Program-made: the position numbers and the translations under genes
Part shown: positions 36,050 through 46,943 of the stretch, in pieces
Layout of the letters: each line of letters begins with the position of its first letter
How positions within the stretch are numbered: position 1 is the first letter of the stretch
Notes under the pieces: model-generated
What the model saw: the letters and a program-made list of their open reading frames with translations, nothing else
The model's database searches: none
Told to the model about the DNA's origin: nothing
Origin: Nitrospiraceae bacterium
GTDB taxonomy: Bacteria > Nitrospirota > Nitrospiria > Nitrospirales > Nitrospiraceae
Assembly: GCA_919902665.1 (NCBI GenBank)
Contig: CAKKRK010000142.1
Span: 1-64,000, forward strand
Reading direction: 5' to 3'
DNA: 64,000 nucleotides

Positions 36050-36256
36050 CGTGAGAAGCGGGCCTGCGATCGGTAGGAACTCCACACACGATAAAAGACC
36101 GTCTGCGGTGGTCGGCTGGAGATGGCTTGGAGCCACGGCTCTAAACCCACCGAGATCCAGAGTGCGGAACGATGGGCACGACAAAACGCCTGGTCGGGGA
36201 ACTATGTTTGATTCCTTCATGTGACCCCAGCTCCAGTAGTGAGGATAACGCGTACT

Positions 36257-37357
36257 TCACGAGCTCGTGGGAGTGAGGGCGACACGATCTGCTGGTCGAT
36301 GGGCAGAGTGAGGAGCATGGCGGACGCGGAATTTCGCCAACATAGGGGCCAGGATTTCTTGTGCTTCAGGTGTCGGCAAGGTTGCTTGTAAGAGTTCAAG
36401 CTTTTCTTCAGTCATGGATTTCAAGCTTGACAGGGCTTCCCCTCCCCGATATCGCACCCACCATTGTTCATCATTCAAGAGCGCAATGAGCCGCGCTTCA
36501 TCGTCCTGTGTTCCCAGTTTGCCCAATGCGGTGGCGGCTTGGACCCGGACGTACCAGGCTGGGTTTGAAAGATGTGTGCGGATCACGTGTAGATCGGTTG
36601 GGTCTCTAAACTCGCCGAATACGAACAAACATGCTGCCAGCACGTCATCTGATGGAGGTTGCTCGTGAAGGAAATGCCGCAAGGCGGAGAGTCCACGCGG
36701 ACTTTTCGTCGTTGGGAGATGGCGAATCAACCGTGAGGCGACGACGGGATCTCCCTGTCTTGCCGCCTGGACGATGGCTTCCGAAGCAAGATCCGGTCCC
36801 GCCGTGCCCAGCATCGAGGTGATCTTGAGCGGCGACCAGTCTGTTCGCCGACCGATGAGCGGGACTAAGAGCGGGATTGCGGCGGTTGCGTCGATCAGGA
36901 GGAGGGCCTGGGCCGCTTGAAATGCCAAGAACGAATTCGAGTGTGTCAGAAGCGCGCTGATCTCCTGCCAGACGGACCGTTCTCGTAACCGCCCCAAGGT
37001 CACGAGTGCGAGAATTCGGCGGCGCAAGAGCCGTGAGCGTAAGAGGCCTTTGGCAAAGCGATCGGTGCCGATGTGCCGGGCCATGCGGTTCAGTTGCGCG
37101 GTCGTCGCGTCCGACTTGGCCTCGCTCTGCTCGTTCCAGAGATACAGAAAGACAATGTGCTCGGGCGGGGTGAGTGATGGTAATCCGTCGAGGGGCGCAT
37201 CGTGGCACTGCTCCAACAACGGTTGCCACAGGGCCGTGACACGCTGCCGTCGACGCTCTTTTGCATGGCGACTCATTCGGGAAAGCAGGATGCCTGCCAA
37301 GAGGAGCAGGATCATGCACGCGATGGACAGAGCGGTCACGTACCAGAGTTCGAGCAT
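36257..37357 (-). CDS. Membrane-anchored HEAT-repeat protein
   Basis: A 366-residue protein with an N-terminal membrane helix (about residues 5-26) and a basic stretch (RHAKERRRQRV), followed by a cytoplasmic helical domain of HEAT-type repeats from about 115: RRRILALVTLGRLRERSVWQEISALL, SNSFLAFQAAQALLLIDATAAIPLLVPLI and SNPAWYVRVQAATALGKLGTQDDEARLIALLNDEQWWVRYRGGEALSSL. It is the last of three minus-strand genes with the YaiO-like and GH18-like genes, so it may serve as scaffold for the exopolysaccharide synthase. That role is inference from position. Confidence 0.75.
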   Translation of the reverse strand: MLELWYVTALSIACMILLLLAGILLSRMSRHAKERRRQRVTALWQPLLEQCHDAPLDGLPSLTPPEHIVFLYLWNEQSEAKSDATTAQLNRMARHIGTDRFAKGLLRSRLLRRRILALVTLGRLRERSVWQEISALLTHSNSFLAFQAAQALLLIDATAAIPLLVPLIGRRTDWSPLKITSMLGTAGPDLASEAIVQAARQGDPVVASRLIRHLPTTKSPRGLSALRHFLHEQPPSDDVLAACLFVFGEFRDPTDLHVIRTHLSNPAWYVRVQAATALGKLGTQDDEARLIALLNDEQWWVRYRGGEALSSLKSMTEEKLELLQATLPTPEAQEILAPMLAKFRVRHAPHSAHRPADRVALTPTSS

Positions 37358-37414
37358 GGGATTAGCTCAGTTGAGTGCATGCGGCGCATATGTTCGGAAA
37401 GACCTCGGGCGTTG

Positions 37415-39244
37415 TCACCAGTGATAGATGACGCTGAAACTCCCTCCTTGCCGCCGGTACAGAATGCCGCGGTCTTCATAAAAGCCGGTGGCTTCCAGGG
37501 ACCATCGTTCGGCGATCGGGAGCGTGATGCCTCCTTGGACGGCGTGGCTGCTTATCCGCGTCAAATCTTGAGTGGCTACGATGCGTTCTCCCGACGTGCC
37601 GAATGAGCCGGAGGCGAAGATCTGCAGGCGATTCATGGGGCGCCAGGTCAGCCGAGAGGCGAGGGTCACGGCGCCGGTTTCCGGAACATAATAGAGCTTC
37701 TCCGTCAGCCAGAGATTGAACGGCAAAAAGACGGTCAGGCCTGGGATCAGCAGATCGCTGTCGCCGATCTTGTAGGAAAGGTGTCGATAGCCGAAGGAGA
37801 CTTCAATCTTCGAGAGCAGGGGATGGACGATCCCCATCCCTTGCGTGATCTCTCCTGCAATCGAGTAATTGGGTGAAAAATGAGAGTTCATCGTTCCCTG
37901 TGCGGCCAGGTATCCCCACGCTCGTCGCCACAAGGGGCTGTACAACTCGCCGGACACCGGCGTGTCGTGGAAGCCGAATCTGGTGATCGGCTCAACCCTG
38001 CCGATCACGGTGTAGGCGCCGAACGACTTGGCCGCTTCGATCAGGATATTCCGCTCGTCGGGAATGTCACGCGAATAGGAAAACTGGCCGTAGCCCAACT
38101 TGACATAGTCTCGGTAGGGCAGGCGGATGGTCGAATCCCGCAGGCCGAGCGGCGCCTGCGGGGAGGCTTCGAGCGAGGCCGTGATGGCCTGTACGCGCGC
38201 CGCACTCTCTCGATCTTCTGTCGCCTTCGCCAATTGTGCATAGTGAGCCAGGGCTTCCTGCGCGGCCCCACTCCAGAACAGGGTGTCGGCTAATCCTCGC
38301 AAGGCATCTCTATTCTCCCCATTTTGCTGGAGGACTGCCTCATAAAGGCGGATCGCGGCAGGAAACTGTTTCTGCCATGAGCGCACACGGGCTAATCCTA
38401 GTTGCACGTCGACATCGGTGGGATGACGCGTCAGGATGTCGCGGTAGAGTGACGCCGCTGGTTCGAATTGTCCGTCTCTGGCCAGTACGCGGGCGAGGGC
38501 CCCGTTGATGTCGTCGTCTTCCGGATGTTCCGCGAGGATCTGCCGGTAGGCGGCGATGGCTGGTCCATATTCGGCATTCCGCTCCCATGCCCGTGCTCGT
38601 GCGATCGTCTCGTCTCGTCCGGCGGAGACGGGCGGGTGGACGGCCGCCGGGGGGCTCTGCTCTCGTTGAACGATCGCGTTGCGAATCGACGCTATGCGCT
38701 CGGTAATGGCTACATCGTTCGAAAGGGCAGAGGCTTGTTCGTAGTAACGGAGTGCTTCCTCCGAGCGTCCCTCCCACAACAATACATCTGCCATTCCTTG
38801 GAGCGCTTCGGGATGGCGGGCCTGTTCTCGCAGCACGCCCTCGTAAAGCGTTCGCGCTTCGTCCATGTGTTGTTGCCACGATAATACCCGCGCGAGCGCG
38901 GTCCGTATATCGAGGTTGACCGGGTGCCGCCGAAGTATCCCTCGATACAAGTCCGCAGCTTCCGCATGAGCGCCTTGCCATGACAGCAGGCGAGCCAAGG
39001 CCGCTCGAACGTCGTCTCGCTCCGGCTCGCGCTGGAGCACTTCCCGGTAGAGGGGAATCGCGTCGTGATACCGTTGAGCAGATTCGTGATCTCTCGCCTG
39101 TTCGAGCAAGGCTCGTGAGGACGGCGCGTCCGTATTCTGAGGCTGTGCGGTTCCGACTCCGCTCAAGGTCGACAGGGTGCAGTAGAACAACAGGGGAATA
39201 CCTGCGTGAAGAAATGGTCGTCCCGAGAGAGATACGGCGCGCAT
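37415..39244 (-). CDS. TPR and YaiO-like outer-membrane beta-barrel protein
   Basis: A 609-residue exported protein. After a signal peptide (about 1-33, ending TAQPQ) come two blocks of TPR units, about 42-190 and 215-370 (AIPLYREVLQREPERDDVRAALARLLSWQGAHAEAADLYRGIL repeated with variations), and then a C-terminal barrel of alternating strands ending in a terminal Trp (FSVIYHW), typical of outer-membrane proteins. The layout parallels PgaA/YaiO-type exporters, where TPRs bind the polymer machinery. It starts 2 nt after the GH18-like gene's stop. Function as polysaccharide exporter is inferred. Confidence 0.75.
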   Translation of the reverse strand: MRAVSLSGRPFLHAGIPLLFYCTLSTLSGVGTAQPQNTDAPSSRALLEQARDHESAQRYHDAIPLYREVLQREPERDDVRAALARLLSWQGAHAEAADLYRGILRRHPVNLDIRTALARVLSWQQHMDEARTLYEGVLREQARHPEALQGMADVLLWEGRSEEALRYYEQASALSNDVAITERIASIRNAIVQREQSPPAAVHPPVSAGRDETIARARAWERNAEYGPAIAAYRQILAEHPEDDDINGALARVLARDGQFEPAASLYRDILTRHPTDVDVQLGLARVRSWQKQFPAAIRLYEAVLQQNGENRDALRGLADTLFWSGAAQEALAHYAQLAKATEDRESAARVQAITASLEASPQAPLGLRDSTIRLPYRDYVKLGYGQFSYSRDIPDERNILIEAAKSFGAYTVIGRVEPITRFGFHDTPVSGELYSPLWRRAWGYLAAQGTMNSHFSPNYSIAGEITQGMGIVHPLLSKIEVSFGYRHLSYKIGDSDLLIPGLTVFLPFNLWLTEKLYYVPETGAVTLASRLTWRPMNRLQIFASGSFGTSGERIVATQDLTRISSHAVQGGITLPIAERWSLEATGFYEDRGILYRRQGGSFSVIYHW

Positions 39245-39245
39245 G

Positions 39246-40817
39246 TTATTCGTGCAACCCCAGGTAGCCCGGGAGATCGTGGATCAACAGTCCAGCAAAG
39301 CTAGGCGTGCGGATGTTGGCAAATACACGAGTGATCGCGTGACGGACGTCCCGCCGAGTATGATCCGCAAAGGAAAGACGCTCGGGGTCTATGGTCGTGT
39401 CGTGGTGGATGCGAAACCATATTCCACCGTGCCTCTGCACCTCGGCGGCTACGCGCCCCAACGTCAAACTCCTCCGCACAGGATCGAGGATCCCGTCCGC
39501 GAGGGTCGGATCGTCCTCGCGCCTCAAGGTGACATGCCGTTCGGGCAGGAGACGCGTGGTTTCCATGGCCAGCCAGACCGGGATGCCTTGTAGCCGGCCG
39601 TAGCGCAGGGTGTCGTCGCTGATCGCCGCCAACTCGTCCACATCCGTTCGATAGCTCATCACGGCGACCTCATCGACGCGATCCATCACGGCAAATGCGA
39701 GCGGTCGACTCCGATGCATCGTCGAGGTGAACCAAAACGGGATGACGACGGATAGTCGCCCTCGACCGCCGAGGGCCGCGTTCACGCGCTCGATGGTGTC
39801 GAGATACCGGTCGAAGATCGTGACATCGTCGGGAAAGCCATCGAGGAGGTAGGGCTCAATGTCCAACTGTATTCCGGAAATCCCGCGGTTGCCGACGAGT
39901 GTCAGCAACCGGGTGAGCTTCTCGACCAGGATCGCCGGGGTATCGATCATGTCCGGGGCGCCGTCGAGCGCAAACAATTCGATGCCCGCTGTCCATGTAG
40001 AGGCGAACAGCGCGGCGTAGGCGGCCCACAACTGGTCGGAGTCCCGCATATCCGGCAGTTGGAGCAATACCCGACGGCAGTGATGCTGTCGGCAGGCGGC
40101 GAGCATTCCGTCGGGGTCGCGTATCGCCGTTCGATAATCCCAATACCAAAAGCCGATAGAGGGGACCGGAGGCGCGGCCGGCTCTCGATTCATCCATGCG
40201 CATTCTTCCAGCACGATGTTCGCGGCACCCTGGACGAGCAGCTTCACTTGCGTGAGGCGTCGAAGATCGAGTCGCCGCGCAACCGGCGCGAGCGGGAGCT
40301 CGACATCAAACCGGCCGGCGACATGCCCGACCACGGCGCTGTCCTGCCGCTGATCAGCGGATTCTGTCACCAGGACGATCGTCAAGGGGCTGGAGGTTGA
40401 CCCACGTGCTCGGAGAGTCTGGAAGGACAACGCGTCCAGGCTGTTGTTCGCCGTCCTGAGAGACCACACCAACTCGCAGGGGGATGTCCCCTCGCGAGTA
40501 ACGCGGACCCGAAGAGGAGGGACGACGCGTTCTTGCTGTGCCCGACAGCCGCCAACCGAGGTGCCGGTCTGTACGAAGAGGGCGAGGTGTGGATCGGAAG
40601 GCCGATAGGAAGAAAGAGCAAAAGAGTTGGCCGGTTGCCAACCGCGCACTATAATTTTTGGAACGGCCTGATCCCCCGCATAGATCAATTCGATTTCCTG
40701 GATTTCCGTTGGAGGCGTCTGCCCGGGAACCGTGAGTTCTTGGGACTTTGCCGAAGACGGCCAGAGGCAGAGCATGAGTAGTATCGGGGTCGCCGCCGTC
40801 CACGAGAGGCGGTTCAT
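39246..40817 (-). CDS. Exported GH18-like TIM-barrel protein
   Basis: ATG at 40,817 gives 523 residues with a signal peptide (MNRLSWTAATPILLMLCLWPSSAKS). Residues about 30-220 look like a beta-rich accessory domain. From about 230 the sequence fits a TIM barrel: SIGFWYWDYRTAI, RRVLLQLPDM, GISGIQLDIEPYLLDGFPDD, LSVVIPFWF, DEVAVMSYRTDVDELAAI. The LDIEP segment resembles the DxE catalytic motif of GH18-type hydrolases. It heads a minus-strand trio and is divergent from the GT2 gene, so trimming or modifying the exported glycan is plausible. The longer open frame to 40,898 would overlap the GT2 gene and lacks a signal peptide at its start. Confidence 0.65.
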   Translation of the reverse strand: MNRLSWTAATPILLMLCLWPSSAKSQELTVPGQTPPTEIQEIELIYAGDQAVPKIIVRGWQPANSFALSSYRPSDPHLALFVQTGTSVGGCRAQQERVVPPLRVRVTREGTSPCELVWSLRTANNSLDALSFQTLRARGSTSSPLTIVLVTESADQRQDSAVVGHVAGRFDVELPLAPVARRLDLRRLTQVKLLVQGAANIVLEECAWMNREPAAPPVPSIGFWYWDYRTAIRDPDGMLAACRQHHCRRVLLQLPDMRDSDQLWAAYAALFASTWTAGIELFALDGAPDMIDTPAILVEKLTRLLTLVGNRGISGIQLDIEPYLLDGFPDDVTIFDRYLDTIERVNAALGGRGRLSVVIPFWFTSTMHRSRPLAFAVMDRVDEVAVMSYRTDVDELAAISDDTLRYGRLQGIPVWLAMETTRLLPERHVTLRREDDPTLADGILDPVRRSLTLGRVAAEVQRHGGIWFRIHHDTTIDPERLSFADHTRRDVRHAITRVFANIRTPSFAGLLIHDLPGYLGLHE

Positions 40818-40875
40818 GCAGGGACACGTCTGACCATCAGGAATGGGCCACGATGCATCCGAAGCAGAACGCATA

Positions 40876-42300
40876 ATGCCGGAAACCATCTTTAACATTG
40901 TTCAGTCGGGGTTTTTGTTGTACTTGGCCGCTTTGACTGTGGGATATCTGGGGCTCAATCTCATCTCCATTTTCTCGCTTCGGCAGTATTTCGAGGAGCG
41001 ACAAGGAGAAGGATTTCCAGGCACATTTACAGGGTATGAGCCGCAGATCAGCATCATCGTGCCAGCATACAATGAAGCGGCGACAATCGTGAATTCTATT
41101 CGATCTTTGCTCCAGCTGAAGTATTCCGAGTATGAAATCATCGTCGTCAGCGACGGCTCGACCGACAACACCGTCGACGTGCTGAGGCAGGAGTTCGGAT
41201 TGAAGCCGTTTCCTGAAGCCTACAGCCACGATCTGCCGACTCAACCGGTGCGTGCCACGTATCATTCGTCGGTCTACACGAATGTTCGTGTCATCGACAA
41301 AGAGAACGGCGGGAAGGCGGACTCCCTCAATGCCGGAATCAATTTGTCCGTGTATCCGTTATTTTGTTGTATCGATGCCGACTCCATCTTGGCACAGGAC
41401 AGTTTGTATCGCGTGGTCCAGCCGTTCTTGCTCGAATCTCGTACCATCGCTGCGGGCGGCACCGTGCGCGTTGCCAACGGCTGTGTCGTGAACAATGGGC
41501 TTCTGAAAACCGTGGGTCTGCCGTCCAGATTCCTGGCGCTGTTGCAAACCGTTGAATACTTGCGGGCGTTCCTATCCGGGCGTCAGGGGTGGTCTCCGCT
41601 GAATGCGATGCTGATTATTTCCGGCGCCTTTGGCTTGTTTCGAAAAGAAGCGGTGTTGAAAGTCGGAGGGTATCGCACCAACACGATCGGTGAAGATATG
41701 GAGTTGGTGGTGCGCTTGCACCATCATTACCGCTTGAATGGCCAGCCCTATCGCATTACGTATGTGCCGGATCCGGTCTGCTGGACCGAGGTGCCGGAGG
41801 ATTTGCGCACCCTCCGGAATCAACGCATCCGCTGGCAGCGCGGTTTATGCGACAGCCTGGCGGGCCACTTCGAGCTGTGCTGCCATCGAAAGGGCGGGAC
41901 GGTCGGTTGGCTCGCCTTTCCGTTCATGGTGATCTTTGAATGGTTTGGGGCTGTATTCGAGATGCTCGGCTATGTGCTCTTGCTTGCCGGGCTCGCGTTC
42001 GGGTTGGTCTCCTTGCATGTCTGGATGGTCTGCATGTGTGTCGCCGTCGGGTTCGGCGTCACGCTCTCGTTGAGCGCCCTGCTCATGGAAGAAATGACGT
42101 TTCATCTGTATCAGCGTCCCTCGGATCTTTTGAAATTGCTGTGCGTCTCGGTCGTGGAAAACTTCGGGTATCGGCAGTTGAATTCCTACTGGAAACTGAT
42201 TGGTCTCTGGCGATGGCTTCGCGGGACCAAAGCGGAGTGGGGTAAGATGGTTCGATCGGCCTCGTGGCAATCCCCGCAGAGCCCTCCTGGAAGCAGCTGA
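40876..42300 (+). CDS. Processive family 2 glycosyltransferase (PgaC/BcsA-like)
   Basis: An inner-membrane glycan synthase of 474 residues (MPETIFNIVQSGFLLYLAALTVGYLG). The catalytic domain shows all processive GT2 signatures: IIVPAYNEAATI, VVSDGSTDNT, the DAD motif in CCIDADSILAQ, GEDMEL and QRIRWQRG (QxxRW type). Membrane helices lie at about 10-30 and four more near residues 340-420. It should make a beta-linked homopolymer; substrate unknown. No PilZ domain is seen, so direct c-di-GMP control is not evident. ATG 40843 is an alternative, 11 codons earlier; neither start has a strong ribosome-binding site. It diverges from the GH18-like gene with 58 nt between starts. Confidence 0.85.
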   Translation: MPETIFNIVQSGFLLYLAALTVGYLGLNLISIFSLRQYFEERQGEGFPGTFTGYEPQISIIVPAYNEAATIVNSIRSLLQLKYSEYEIIVVSDGSTDNTVDVLRQEFGLKPFPEAYSHDLPTQPVRATYHSSVYTNVRVIDKENGGKADSLNAGINLSVYPLFCCIDADSILAQDSLYRVVQPFLLESRTIAAGGTVRVANGCVVNNGLLKTVGLPSRFLALLQTVEYLRAFLSGRQGWSPLNAMLIISGAFGLFRKEAVLKVGGYRTNTIGEDMELVVRLHHHYRLNGQPYRITYVPDPVCWTEVPEDLRTLRNQRIRWQRGLCDSLAGHFELCCHRKGGTVGWLAFPFMVIFEWFGAVFEMLGYVLLLAGLAFGLVSLHVWMVCMCVAVGFGVTLSLSALLMEEMTFHLYQRPSDLLKLLCVSVVENFGYRQLNSYWKLIGLWRWLRGTKAEWGKMVRSASWQSPQSPPGSS

Positions 42301-42387: not shown

Positions 42388-43245
42388 ATGCCATCGGCGA
42401 GCGAACTGGTCCAGTCCTGCACCACCGTCTTCACGTTGCCGGAGATCTACTTCCGCGTGCGGGACGTGGTGAACGATCCCGATTCGACCATGGACGACCT
42501 TGCCGAGGTCCTGAAGCTGGATCCGGCCATCTCGGCCAGGTTGCTCCGCATTGTCAACAGCCCATTCTACGGGTTCCCCAAGCAGATCGACACGATCTCG
42601 CGTGCCGTCAATCTCCTCGGTACACAGGCCATCAACGACCTTGTCACTGCGACGACGGTCGGACGGACCTTTGCCGGCATGCCGATTCAACTGATGGACG
42701 TCTCCATGTTCTGGCGGAAAAGCGTGCTCTGTGCCTTGCTCGCCGGGAAAATTGCCAAATCCTGCGGTCTTGAAGATAGCGAGCGGTTTTTTATCGCAGG
42801 GTTGTTGCGCGACATCGGCCACCTCGTCCTCTACCAGACCATCCCGCGGCGAGCTCAGTCCGCGCTTATCGAAGCTGGCTACCTTGAAACCTCCCTGGCC
42901 GAGGTGGAACAGTCCAGCATCGGGTGCGACTTCGTAGAAGTGGGAGCCGAACTCATCCGGTCCTGGGGGATGCCTCTGCAGATCGAGCAGGCCATTCGCT
43001 GTCAACTGAGCCCAAACGATGCCGGTGAATTTATCATCCATGCGTCCGTCGTTCATCTGGCCGGTGTCGTCGTCGACTACGAAGAGCTCGAGCCGAACCG
43101 GAGGCCTGCGGCATTGCCGTTCACCCCCCATGCTGTTACCGCCACACGGTTTGTGCCGGCCAACCTCCCGGCACTGCTCGCAGATGCCAGCGCCCAGCTC
43201 CACGATACCCTGGCGCTGATCCAGCCCCACGCCATGGCTGCCTAA
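42388..43245 (+). CDS. HDOD-domain protein
   Basis: A 285-residue cytoplasmic protein. HDOD spans about 12-215: LPEIYFRVRDVVNDPDSTMDDLAEVLKLDPAISARLLRIVNSPFYGFPKQIDTISRAVNLLGTQAINDLV, then FFIAGLLRDIGHLVLYQ. HDOD proteins are HD-like but lack the full metal site; most are uncharacterised signalling or RNA-decay regulators. It lies 87 nt after the GT2 gene, which suggests cotranscription and a link to exopolysaccharide control. Its TAA stop lies at the start of a degraded repeat end. Confidence 0.85.
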   Translation: MPSASELVQSCTTVFTLPEIYFRVRDVVNDPDSTMDDLAEVLKLDPAISARLLRIVNSPFYGFPKQIDTISRAVNLLGTQAINDLVTATTVGRTFAGMPIQLMDVSMFWRKSVLCALLAGKIAKSCGLEDSERFFIAGLLRDIGHLVLYQTIPRRAQSALIEAGYLETSLAEVEQSSIGCDFVEVGAELIRSWGMPLQIEQAIRCQLSPNDAGEFIIHASVVHLAGVVVDYEELEPNRRPAALPFTPHAVTATRFVPANLPALLADASAQLHDTLALIQPHAMAA

Positions 43246-43310: not shown

Positions 43311-44882
43311 CTACAGGATGCCGGCCAATCGATTCAGGCCCAGCGTCGCCTGGGCAAAAAACAGCTGAAATGCCTGGTAGTCCTGGGGGAGCACCGGCTG
43401 GTTGCTCGTGGCTCGATCGCAGTAGATGAGCCCAATCGGTCTCGCTCCCACCCGCAACGGCGCCACGATCGCCGATGTCGGGTTCCAGACATCGAGGAAG
43501 TCCTGTTTCAGAGTCCCGGCCATTTGGTCTGAAAAGTTGGGAACCAGGAGTGGATCGACTCGTTTGAGGATCGTGAGAAAAAACCGGTGTTCCCGGCTGA
43601 GTGAGCCTGACAGGGACCGGAGGTACGGTGCCAGAGGAATCACGCCAAGCCCCACCCTTCCGATAAGCAGATCACTATCGCTTGGGTTCAGCAGTGCCAG
43701 ACCCACACGGTCAAATCTGGCATCCCGATGGAGCGATTGTACAAATATCCCAAGGAGGCCGTTCAGGTCCTTCGCACTCTGGAGCGAGTCCTGAAAGGCC
43801 TGGAGCGTTTCAAGAGGCTTGGTTCGAATCGGAGCAGTCGGTTCGTCTCGCGGTGGGGACATCGCCTGTTCCTTGCCGACCGCCGGGTTGATGGGGGGCG
43901 AGTGCGGAATCGATTCGGTGGGGTCCTGCTCCTTTGATGGTGACGTGGCTTCATCGGAAGAATCGATTGCCAGCCCCATTGAGCGGATGAGTTGGCGCCC
44001 GCGATCCATAGCCCGAATCATCAAATCCGTGAACGGGCCAGAAGAGAGTCCGCTTCCGAGCTGGAGGGTCTTTTTGGCTTCCTCAACGGCAGTCCGCGGG
44101 GCGGGGCCGGTCAGCACCTCGACCAGGCGAATGGAGCCGACGACGATACCTCGGTAGGTGTGTGGCCTACTTTGCCAATGCGCTATCGGTTGTTCCTCCG
44201 GATGACGGAAGAGCTCGATCAGATCATCAGGTAGCTTCCACATGTGGGCCAATGCTTGGGCCAAGGTCAGTCGTGGCACACCGATGAGGCGCGTCTCTTG
44301 AAGCGCGGATTCCGACGGGCGCTTGGTTGTCTTGGAAATAGCCTGGAGAGCGAGAAAGAGGTCAGGGTCTTGGTAGGCAATGGCCAAGTCTCCGATCGAA
44401 TAGAGGAGGGCGCCGGTAAACAACTGCCCAGGCTGTGGGTAGCCTATAGCCATGCCCAGTTCGCTGGCATAGGTCGCGGCGATGAGAGACCGTGCGATCA
44501 GAGTTTGAAACTCCTGTTGGCGAAGCGGCCAATGTTGCAGCTGTTCGACAAGATGGGCTGCGGCCACAAGGGACCGGACGGTGTCGAGCCCGAGCCAGCT
44601 GACGGCATGGGGGACCGACACAATCGTCTGCCGAGGACTGTAGGCGATGCTGTTCGCGACTTGTAGAACTTTGCATGTCAGCCCATGGTCTCTGCTGATC
44701 ACCCGGGCAAGAGTTTCGGCATTGGACTGAGGTCCCATGTGATTCAGGATTTGCTGGCAGGTTGACTGCAAGATGGGAAGACAGCTGCTGGATTCGTCCA
44801 AGAGCGGCCTGAGTTTTTGATGGAGACGAGGGCGGATTGAATCGATGAAGGCTGATTCTATGGCCGTGCTTGAGGAAGTCAT
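43311..44882 (-). CDS. HDOD-GAF signalling protein
   Basis: A 523-residue cytoplasmic protein. The HDOD domain covers about 30-245 (SNAETLARVISRDHGLTCKVLQVANSIAYSPRQTIVSVPHAVSWLGLDTVRSLVAAAHLVEQ; FTGALLYSIGDLAIAY). A Pro/Ser/Glu-rich linker covers about 310-355. A GAF-like domain fills 360-520 (LNGLLGIFVQSLHRDARFDRVGLALLNPSDSDLLIGRVGLG and SAIVAPLRVGARPIGLIYCDRA). It is convergent with the single-domain HDOD gene. A ligand-sensing regulator is likely; ligand and target unknown. Confidence 0.82.
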   Translation of the reverse strand: MTSSSTAIESAFIDSIRPRLHQKLRPLLDESSSCLPILQSTCQQILNHMGPQSNAETLARVISRDHGLTCKVLQVANSIAYSPRQTIVSVPHAVSWLGLDTVRSLVAAAHLVEQLQHWPLRQQEFQTLIARSLIAATYASELGMAIGYPQPGQLFTGALLYSIGDLAIAYQDPDLFLALQAISKTTKRPSESALQETRLIGVPRLTLAQALAHMWKLPDDLIELFRHPEEQPIAHWQSRPHTYRGIVVGSIRLVEVLTGPAPRTAVEEAKKTLQLGSGLSSGPFTDLMIRAMDRGRQLIRSMGLAIDSSDEATSPSKEQDPTESIPHSPPINPAVGKEQAMSPPRDEPTAPIRTKPLETLQAFQDSLQSAKDLNGLLGIFVQSLHRDARFDRVGLALLNPSDSDLLIGRVGLGVIPLAPYLRSLSGSLSREHRFFLTILKRVDPLLVPNFSDQMAGTLKQDFLDVWNPTSAIVAPLRVGARPIGLIYCDRATSNQPVLPQDYQAFQLFFAQATLGLNRLAGIL

Positions 44883-45704: not shown

Positions 45705-46943
45705 GTGAGTACAGGTGTATCGTATTCCATACGACTCGCAACAGCGGTTGGGGTGACCCTGGCCATGTTGGCGACATCCGCGCAGGCGCAAGAAATCATG
45801 AATCGTGGCGCAGTGACGGGGGTCAAGGTTGCTCCGGGTAACAGCAATCGAATTGACTTTGCCAACGCCAGAGCGATGGCCCTGCCTCAAGCGACGGAGG
45901 CTGTATCCGCGCAGGCTGAACAGGATTTGATCAGCAACTTAGTCAATCGATTCCAAGCCTCCGCTGCCACAGACAGTGGCCAAGTGGCAGGTTCTGAGGG
46001 TGATGGGTCGGCTCTCAATGCTATTGATCTTGACACATCTTCGGAGGCAATCAATACGCAGGCGGGGGGAGAATTTGAAACGCAGGAACATGGCACGTCA
46101 AATCATCCCTTTAGCACAGCGAAGGCCGATCTCAGGAATCTGAATGGTACGGCCCATCCGACTAATTTCACCTACCCCTATAGTCCGTCCGGTAAACTGT
46201 TCTTTAATATCGGCTCCAGCACGTTTGTGTGCTCCGCCTCATTGATCAAGAAAGGCGTTGTTGTCACAGCCGCGCACTGTGTGGCCGAGTTTGGATCAAG
46301 AACAAGGTTTTATACCAACTTCCGCTTTGTACCAGGGTATCGGAATGGCGTTGGGAATACTGCTCCCTCGCCTGGAAACTGGGCGGTCTCGCAAGCATGG
46401 GTCATGAGTAGCTATATCAATGGGGTGGCAGGGCAATGCGCCGCCACCGCTCCAGGTGTGGTCTGTAAGGATGATGTCGCGGTGCTCGAACTGACGCGAA
46501 AGAGCACCATTCCCAACTATCCAGGCACCGTGACTGGTTGGTATGGCTATGGGTGGAACCGGTTTGGCTTTACGTCAACTGGTCTGACCCATATCACTCA
46601 AACAGGCTATCCTGTCGGGCTCGATTTCGGGCAACTCATGCAGCGCAATGACTCACAGGGCTTTATCGCGTCCTCCACGCTCGTGAATAATACCGTCATT
46701 GGCTCCTTGATGACGGGCGGCTCCAGCGGAGGGCCATGGCTCCTCAATTTTGGAATTCGGCCGACGCTCAATGGAACAGCGAATGGGTCTTTCCCCAATC
46801 CAAACATTGTGATCGGGGTGACCAGCTGGGGTTATGTGAGTTCGGCCATCAAGCAACAGGGGGCCAGCCCCTTCACCAGCACGAACATTGTGCCGTTGGT
46901 CAATGCCGCTTGTGCAAGCTCAGATCCGCGTTGTGCGCCATAA
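45705..46943 (+). CDS. Secreted trypsin-like (V8-type) serine protease
   Basis: A 412-residue S1-fold preproprotein. GTG 45705 has an ideal AAGGAGG six bases upstream. Signal peptide cleavage is likely after AQA at 28. Residues 29-165 form a pro-region (QEIMNRGAVTGVKV, QAEQDLISNLVNRFQ). The catalytic domain starts near GKLFFNIG and carries His191 (VVVTAAHC), Asp257 (CKDDVAVLEL) and Ser341 (MTGGSSGGPW). CVCSA-type and C-terminal cysteines may form disulfides. The pro-region is duplicated in the gene at 47,319. It would act outside the cytoplasm; substrate unknown. Confidence 0.85.
   Translation: MSTGVSYSIRLATAVGVTLAMLATSAQAQEIMNRGAVTGVKVAPGNSNRIDFANARAMALPQATEAVSAQAEQDLISNLVNRFQASAATDSGQVAGSEGDGSALNAIDLDTSSEAINTQAGGEFETQEHGTSNHPFSTAKADLRNLNGTAHPTNFTYPYSPSGKLFFNIGSSTFVCSASLIKKGVVVTAAHCVAEFGSRTRFYTNFRFVPGYRNGVGNTAPSPGNWAVSQAWVMSSYINGVAGQCAATAPGVVCKDDVAVLELTRKSTIPNYPGTVTGWYGYGWNRFGFTSTGLTHITQTGYPVGLDFGQLMQRNDSQGFIASSTLVNNTVIGSLMTGGSSGGPWLLNFGIRPTLNGTANGSFPNPNIVIGVTSWGYVSSAIKQQGASPFTSTNIVPLVNAACASSDPRCAP

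Follow-up and report, generated by a model that had tools for sequence, protein, structure and literature searches.

Which machine do four neighboring genes encode in a 64,000-nucleotide stretch of a Nitrospiraceae genome (GenBank GCA_919902665.1, contig CAKKRK010000142.1, positions 1 to 64,000; hereafter the window), and is the HEAT-repeat protein among their products a working part of it? Besides the HEAT protein, the locus codes for a family 2 glycosyltransferase (GT2), an exported protein with a barrel-like part, and a protein that joins tetratricopeptide repeats (TPR) to a YaiO-type barrel. An initial annotation of the window had read these genes as one synthase-dependent exopolysaccharide system and had named co-occurrence across genomes and structure prediction as checks. 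Synthase, exported barrel protein, TPR-barrel exporter, and HEAT protein co-occur strongly, in agreement with that reading, and we consider it likely that the locus is a synthase-dependent exopolysaccharide system with export, a variant of a HEAT-partnered kind. The source genome (3.56 Mb, 240 contigs) has named relatives that are nearly all Nitrospira metagenome-assembled genomes. Its open reading frame (ORF) list places the four genes where they had been annotated, with GT2 on the plus strand divergent from the other three on the minus strand, and purifying selection is apparent on all four (dN/dS 0.12 to 0.24, against the relative L026).

In a Pfam scan, the GT2 matches PF13641 (90.8 bits) and also PF00535; no PilZ domain is matched in the same scan, as the initial annotation held. 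The protein contains DxD, ED, and QRIRW motifs and has hydrophobic segments at both its N- and C-terminus, which is the pattern expected of processive synthases (DxD, ED, and QxxRW with flanking membrane segments). From these features, again as annotated, we infer a putative processive polysaccharide synthase, which would carry out the polymerization itself. Its top NCBIfam model is PgaC (TIGR03937) at 147.2 bits, below the cut-off of 422.3, and the BcsA equivalog gives 42.8 bits against a cut-off of 699.1. The TPR-YaiO protein matches TPR_19 (PF14559, 119.2 bits) and scores above the cut-off of both models of the YaiO barrel family, PF19413 (34.9 bits; cut-off 23.9) and TIGR04390 (73.3 bits; cut-off 32), which bears out the annotated TPR plus YaiO-like barrel; for the PgaA equivalog TIGR03939 it reaches 61.9 bits, below the cut-off of 366.65. 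It is predicted to be an exporter composed of a periplasmic TPR domain and an outer-membrane barrel. AlphaFold2 (mean predicted local distance difference test score, pLDDT, 62.7) models the TPR part well and the barrel poorly, leaving the folds unsettled; structure prediction supported the annotation for the TPR part, and the models of the YaiO barrel and of the exported protein were poor.

These assignments also bear on the alternative that the GT2 is no exopolysaccharide synthase and that the target of glycosylation is a lipid or cell-wall component, with the HEAT protein, barrel protein, and YaiO barrel serving envelope maintenance. Numerous GT2s with this fold have lipid substrates, and HEAT-GT2 pairs that lack a YaiO barrel occur in archaea and Bacillota; against this stand the QxxRW motif and membrane segments, which are as in processive synthases, the TPR-barrel exporter of diderm loci, and a CE4-like deacetylase in relatives, so that we regard the alternative as distinctly improbable.

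For the exopolysaccharide reading, the genes should travel together, and we searched 147 genomes of the family using presence cut-offs of our own choosing that differ by query. The barrel protein is present in 55 genomes, GT2 in 57, TPR-YaiO in 61, an orthologue-level HEAT protein in 55, and the deacetylase of relatives in 48; only HEAT matches at E ≤ 1e-15 were counted as orthologue-level, because weak ones occur in every genome. At least one of the five genes is found in 66 genomes, all four window genes in 49 of these, and all five in 40; the P values for co-occurrence ignore ancestry. Within genera, presence is scattered, and this speaks for gain or loss of the genes as a set. Among the named loci, 12 of 19 hold all four genes clustered, the other seven being cut by contig ends, and a second set of regions holds all four in 13 of 15 cases (two loci in the raw lists are duplicates, L056 being the L024 record and L057 the L032 record). 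Five GT2-positive genomes, including G202, have no HEAT match at the cut-off; in two of them, a HEAT gene does adjoin GT2 (G220, locus L084; G262, locus L076), and in two more the GT2 lies on short contigs of 3.2 and 5.6 kb (L085, L086). By gene content and linkage, then, the four genes are a real unit. In the distant Nitrospirota locus L101 (genome G339), the row reads response regulator, TPR-YaiO, HEAT, GT2, tyrosine-phosphatase-like gene, and barrel protein. The tyrosine-phosphatase-like gene, at L101:6699-7244 (+), scores 22.9 bits (cut-off 27); apart from this gene, placed between GT2 and the barrel gene, the row is collinear.

To place the HEAT protein beyond Nitrospirota, we searched 72,556 plasmid records with the window GT2 by tblastn, which returned 18 records at E ≤ 1e-30; query cover reached 80% or more in 14 of these. 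A HEAT gene adjoins GT2 in all 14 well-covered records, with some gene ends overlapping; ten of these HEAT genes are annotated, two are in further Mesorhizobium records, that of Paenibacillus is identified by Pfam, and that of Emticicia scores 25.0 bits (cut-off 27.7). The hosts comprise three haloarchaea as well as Bacillota, Bacteroidota, Deinococcota, and alpha- and gammaproteobacteria. No annotated HEAT neighbor is seen in three GT2 loci outside this group (two of the remaining four records plus a weaker Sulfitobacter match); the matches H20, H21, and the unannotated H52 (L125) were left out of the neighborhood comparison. In a tree of 26 GT2s, all 18 HEAT-adjacent ones lie on one side of a branch with support 94/99, and PgaC, BcsA, YaiP, and three large GT2s lie on the other, in an unrooted tree whose controls are few and long-branched. 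The window GT2 falls in the HEAT-adjacent group, with its HEAT gene in the same cluster. By these comparisons, the HEAT protein is the synthase's most constant partner across phyla and archaea, and no accessory oddity.

The contrary view, that the HEAT protein is a bystander carried in the cluster and neither subunit nor regulator of the synthase, draws on its low identity between phyla, on the weak HEAT matches of every genome, and on the two genes that separate HEAT from GT2 in window-type loci. It does not explain why the two genes adjoin in 14 of 14 plasmid records from archaea and several bacterial phyla, or why three related GT2 loci outside the group have no annotated HEAT neighbor, and we hold it to be highly doubtful.

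Taken as a partner, the HEAT protein (HEAT_2, PF13646, 93.7 bits) has one hydrophobic segment at its N-terminus, with seven basic residues in the stretch of twenty that follows. From this, the HEAT part is predicted to be cytoplasmic; we read the whole as a putative membrane-anchored synthase partner on the cytoplasmic side. The initial annotation had called it a novel component. That novelty holds as far as the searched full-text literature on YaiO, HEAT, and exopolysaccharide goes, in which no exopolysaccharide system with a HEAT protein was found; subscription papers were mostly outside this scope, so a description elsewhere is possible. Titles and abstract openings of the Nitrospira exopolysaccharide literature name no such system, and the accessible part of PMC12419801 mentions HEAT repeats only for beta-catenin. 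The label was nevertheless an understatement, since the protein is a constant GT2 neighbor across phyla and in archaea.

The plasmid loci also show which parts accompany the pair. TPR and/or YaiO genes are present in seven of seven diderm plasmid loci (in Erythrobacter, Deinococcus, and Devosia the TPR part alone is recognized) and in none of five archaeal or Bacillota loci. Besides HEAT-GT2, the Devosia, Paenibacillus, and Planococcus loci also encode a relative of the exported barrel protein. The Planococcus maritimus plasmid locus (L116), which is possibly a Gram-positive version of the system, combines HEAT-GT2 and the barrel-protein relative with genes annotated as polyphosphate polymerase domain, DUF4956, and CotH kinase. 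On the archaeal plasmid of Halosolutus gelatinilyticus (L108), a nucleotidyltransferase gene and glmS follow HEAT-GT2. On the Devosia plasmid (L100, 10399-14588), the TPR and GT2 genes are split into several ORFs, and this copy may be decaying or carry sequencing errors.

The exported protein consists of a beta-rich N-terminal part and a barrel-like C-terminal part with a DxEPY motif (D346, E348). It had been annotated as GH18-like, a label that did not survive and reflected a motif impression: the protein matches no Pfam or NCBIfam family (no Pfam hit at E ≤ 0.1, the GH18 model included), and a PHROGs search gave nothing. Single proteins of the family match no PDB entry; a family profile built from 17 relatives matches 10yv_A ("putative GH97 from Cellulomonas fimi"; E 2e-14) in a portion of the barrel. 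Ten aligned relatives, which come from Nitrospirota, Devosia, Paenibacillus, and Planococcus, all keep DxEPY and nearly keep the PFW and MxYR positions further along. The AlphaFold2 model has a mean pLDDT of 52.8 and does not settle the fold; Foldseek with this low-confidence model returned carbohydrate-binding modules and xylanase 10B at low TM-scores, which are weak hints only. The protein is a member of a so far unnamed barrel family that carries a DxEPY motif, and is a putative glycosidase or chain-binding protein, the conservation of DxEPY being compatible with the former. Members of this family turn up in other arrangements. In genome G262, a single 1070-aa ORF (L076:8266-11478, minus strand) fuses GT2 to the DxEPY barrel protein; a HEAT gene precedes it, TPR-YaiO and then a deacetylase gene with in-frame stops follow, and an ORF for a response regulator that looks GGDEF-like by eye lies further upstream. 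A distant relative in G131 adjoins a GH3 gene and a solute symporter, and genome G099 has, on a 3.3-kb contig (L022; G099:C59), a second copy of the barrel gene that is broken by in-frame stops and accompanied by TPR and GT2 fragments.

The absence of a deacetylase, noted in the initial annotation, is confirmed for the window genome, where a whole-genome search finds no match anywhere, and it is not a property of the system, since relatives carry the gene. In more distant Nitrospira loci, TPR-YaiO and HEAT flank a gene for a protein of 630-660 aa that has a CE4-like domain. PF01522 scores 20.1 and 22.7 bits in the two proteins tested, just below the cut-off of 23.1; THDxD, HTxxH, and IHPN are conserved in nine of nine aligned sequences, and the N-terminal part resembles the trimerization domain of GH42 beta-galactosidases (profile match to BgaB, E 4e-4). 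Near the window lineage, the gene is intact after HEAT (L042), split by an insertion sequence with an integrase-type transposase gene (L043), N-terminally deleted (L044), or gone (L024, L026, and the window). In the window spacer that corresponds to its position (Table 1), the sole matches lie at the end of the neighboring ABC-F gene. Because relatives have the gene and near relatives display intact, interrupted, and part-deleted stages, its absence is, as judged from these sequences, a secondary, lineage-specific loss. In G224 and G254, the barrel protein and deacetylase genes sit together on a contig other than that of GT2, and in G260 they sit together with no GT2 found (loci of the three genomes: L069, L071, and L073). 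Their standing together apart from GT2 in three genomes makes them look like a functional pair, reminiscent of single-chain PgaB and PelA.

Comparison with described systems places the locus near several of them. The PNAG (poly-N-acetylglucosamine) system pgaABCD of Escherichia coli (L122) shares with it a GT2 whose best family model is PgaC and a TPR-barrel exporter, and the CE4-like deacetylase and barrel protein of relatives parallel the two domains of PgaB. It is different in that every equivalog cut-off is missed, a HEAT protein is present instead of PgaD, and deacetylase and barrel protein are separate genes, the former lost in the window lineage. No two-domain PgaB was found, as the barrel protein has no family match and the deacetylase is separate in relatives and absent from the window genome. 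One could still read the locus as a divergent pgaABCD in which PgaB is split into deacetylase and hydrolase genes, HEAT stands in for PgaD, and the polymer is PNAG, a reading favored by the PgaC match (147 bits) and by the way in which deacetylase, barrel protein, and TPR-barrel mirror PgaB and PgaA. We judge it unlikely, as the scores lie far under the equivalog cut-offs (PgaC 147 against 422; PgaA 62 against 367), there is no PgaD, the barrel protein lacks a Pfam match, and PgaC falls outside the HEAT-GT2 group.

In Pel systems, the synthase PelF is a GT4 enzyme, and the synthase here is a GT2; Pfam and NCBIfam find no PelA-type protein in the window cluster, and a search of the PDB set with a profile of the deacetylase brings up no PelA chain. 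A TPR-barrel exporter is common to both. PelA, as described in PMC12022489, comprises hydrolase, mixed alpha/beta, deacetylase, and beta-rich domains, and against that description the relatives' barrel protein and deacetylase, with its GH42-trimerization-like part, would sum to a PelA-like set. The cellulose system Bcs of E. coli (L123) likewise has a GT2 synthase, a periplasmic hydrolase, and a TPR-barrel exporter; here, however, BcsA scores 43 bits against 699, PilZ is missing, and the cluster has no BcsB-like gene. E. coli yaiO-yaiX-yaiP-yaiS (L068) also brings together genes for a GT2, a deacetylase, and a barrel of the YaiO type; we rejected it as the same system, as no HEAT protein is annotated there, YaiP is 24% identical in alignment and distant in the tree, and BLASTP of YaiO finds no match in the window barrel. 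For the arabinose-containing polysaccharide (APS) operon of S. meliloti, no convincing GT2 or HEAT relative was found in one unannotated pSymB stretch, which may not cover the operon. On the family models applied, the window machine would work like PNAG or Pel systems but is a member of neither.

A hint of control comes from the genes upstream of HEAT. Of 36 Nitrospirota loci with a HEAT gene, 11 by raw count encode a single-domain response regulator on the same strand and no more than 300 bp upstream of it. In seven of 12 plasmid loci, such a gene is found within about 2 kb upstream (that of Halosolutus by annotation); window-type loci have none, and in two archaea, the response-regulator and HEAT genes overlap. 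From this arrangement, we infer a phosphorelay input through HEAT.

We propose that GT2 polymerizes a nucleotide sugar and would extrude the chain through the inner membrane, with UDP-GlcNAc or a related amino sugar as the best guess. Three features suggest amino-sugar chemistry: the likeness to PgaC, the deacetylase, and, in Halosolutus, genes for GlmS and a nucleotidyltransferase. On the cytoplasmic side, the HEAT protein may hold or switch the synthase, in place of PgaD or of PilZ/c-di-GMP (cyclic di-GMP) modules, and in many relatives the upstream single-domain response regulator may provide the signal. The DxEPY barrel protein would act in the periplasm, binding or trimming the chain, in most relatives together with the CE4-like deacetylase, the two resembling a split PgaB or PelA; the TPR domain would then collect the chain and the YaiO barrel export it. 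With the deacetylase gone and no response regulator nearby, the window lineage probably makes an unmodified polymer under other control.

Several observations weigh against this reading. Two of the 15 regions (L054, L055) lack the cluster, and at the chosen cut-offs TPR-YaiO stands alone in five of the 147 genomes and GT2 in two. HEAT-type matches appear in 147 of 147 genomes at a loose cut-off, the barrel protein has neither a family assignment in Pfam or NCBIfam nor a good structure model, and no response regulator is found near the window or near 25 of the 36 Nitrospirota loci. Other nucleotide-sugar genes occur in the Legionella locus, and members may therefore differ in their polymer.

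That HEAT genes go with this kind of synthase in remote bacteria and in archaea alike suggests an undescribed type of polysaccharide-making machine. As a tentative extension, we put forward as possible a class of bacterial and archaeal synthase complexes in which HEAT is an obligatory subunit that couples GT2 to a phosphorelay through a stand-alone response regulator, and not to c-di-GMP; in diderms, this core would be joined by a TPR-YaiO exporter, and in many members by a DxEPY glycosidase together with a split PelA/PgaB-like deacetylase. Cellulose, PNAG, alginate, and Pel systems are understood mostly through c-di-GMP control. If the proposal is true, a constant HEAT partner and a frequent response-regulator neighbor in bacteria and archaea would amount to a second control logic. 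It would also provide a sequence handle on the matrix polymers of hard-to-grow organisms such as Nitrospira, whose biofilms and flocs are relevant to wastewater treatment, and the cargo of the YaiO barrel would become a testable question.

Table 1. Features of the locus and its flanks in the window.
Feature	Coordinates	Strand	Basis and remarks
HEAT gene	36257-37357	-	ORF list
TPR+barrel gene	37415-39244	-	ORF list
Exported protein gene	39246-40898	-	ORF list; likely start ~40817
GT2 gene	40843-42300	+	ORF list; likely start ~40876
HDOD gene	42388-43245	+	HDOD Pfam match; neighbor, judged outside the system
HDOD-GAF gene	43311-44882	-	HDOD Pfam match; neighbor, judged outside the system
Spacer, deacetylase position in relatives	36050-36256	no strand	CE4-like gene here in relatives; no remnant detected

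As listed, the GT2 and exported-protein ORFs overlap at their starts; the likely downstream starts in Table 1, which are drawn from the alignment starts of homologues and a signal peptide read by eye, would give a short divergent gap. The two HDOD genes do follow the locus, as initially annotated, and both have HDOD matches. They are conserved beside it only in the closest relatives (L024, L025, L026, L043, L044, and L056), for which reason we rejected them as parts of the system. Further along, the window carries a trypsin-like protease gene at 45705-46943 (+; PF00089, 30.8 bits), relatives of which, at 34-90% identity, lie near the locus in some close genomes.

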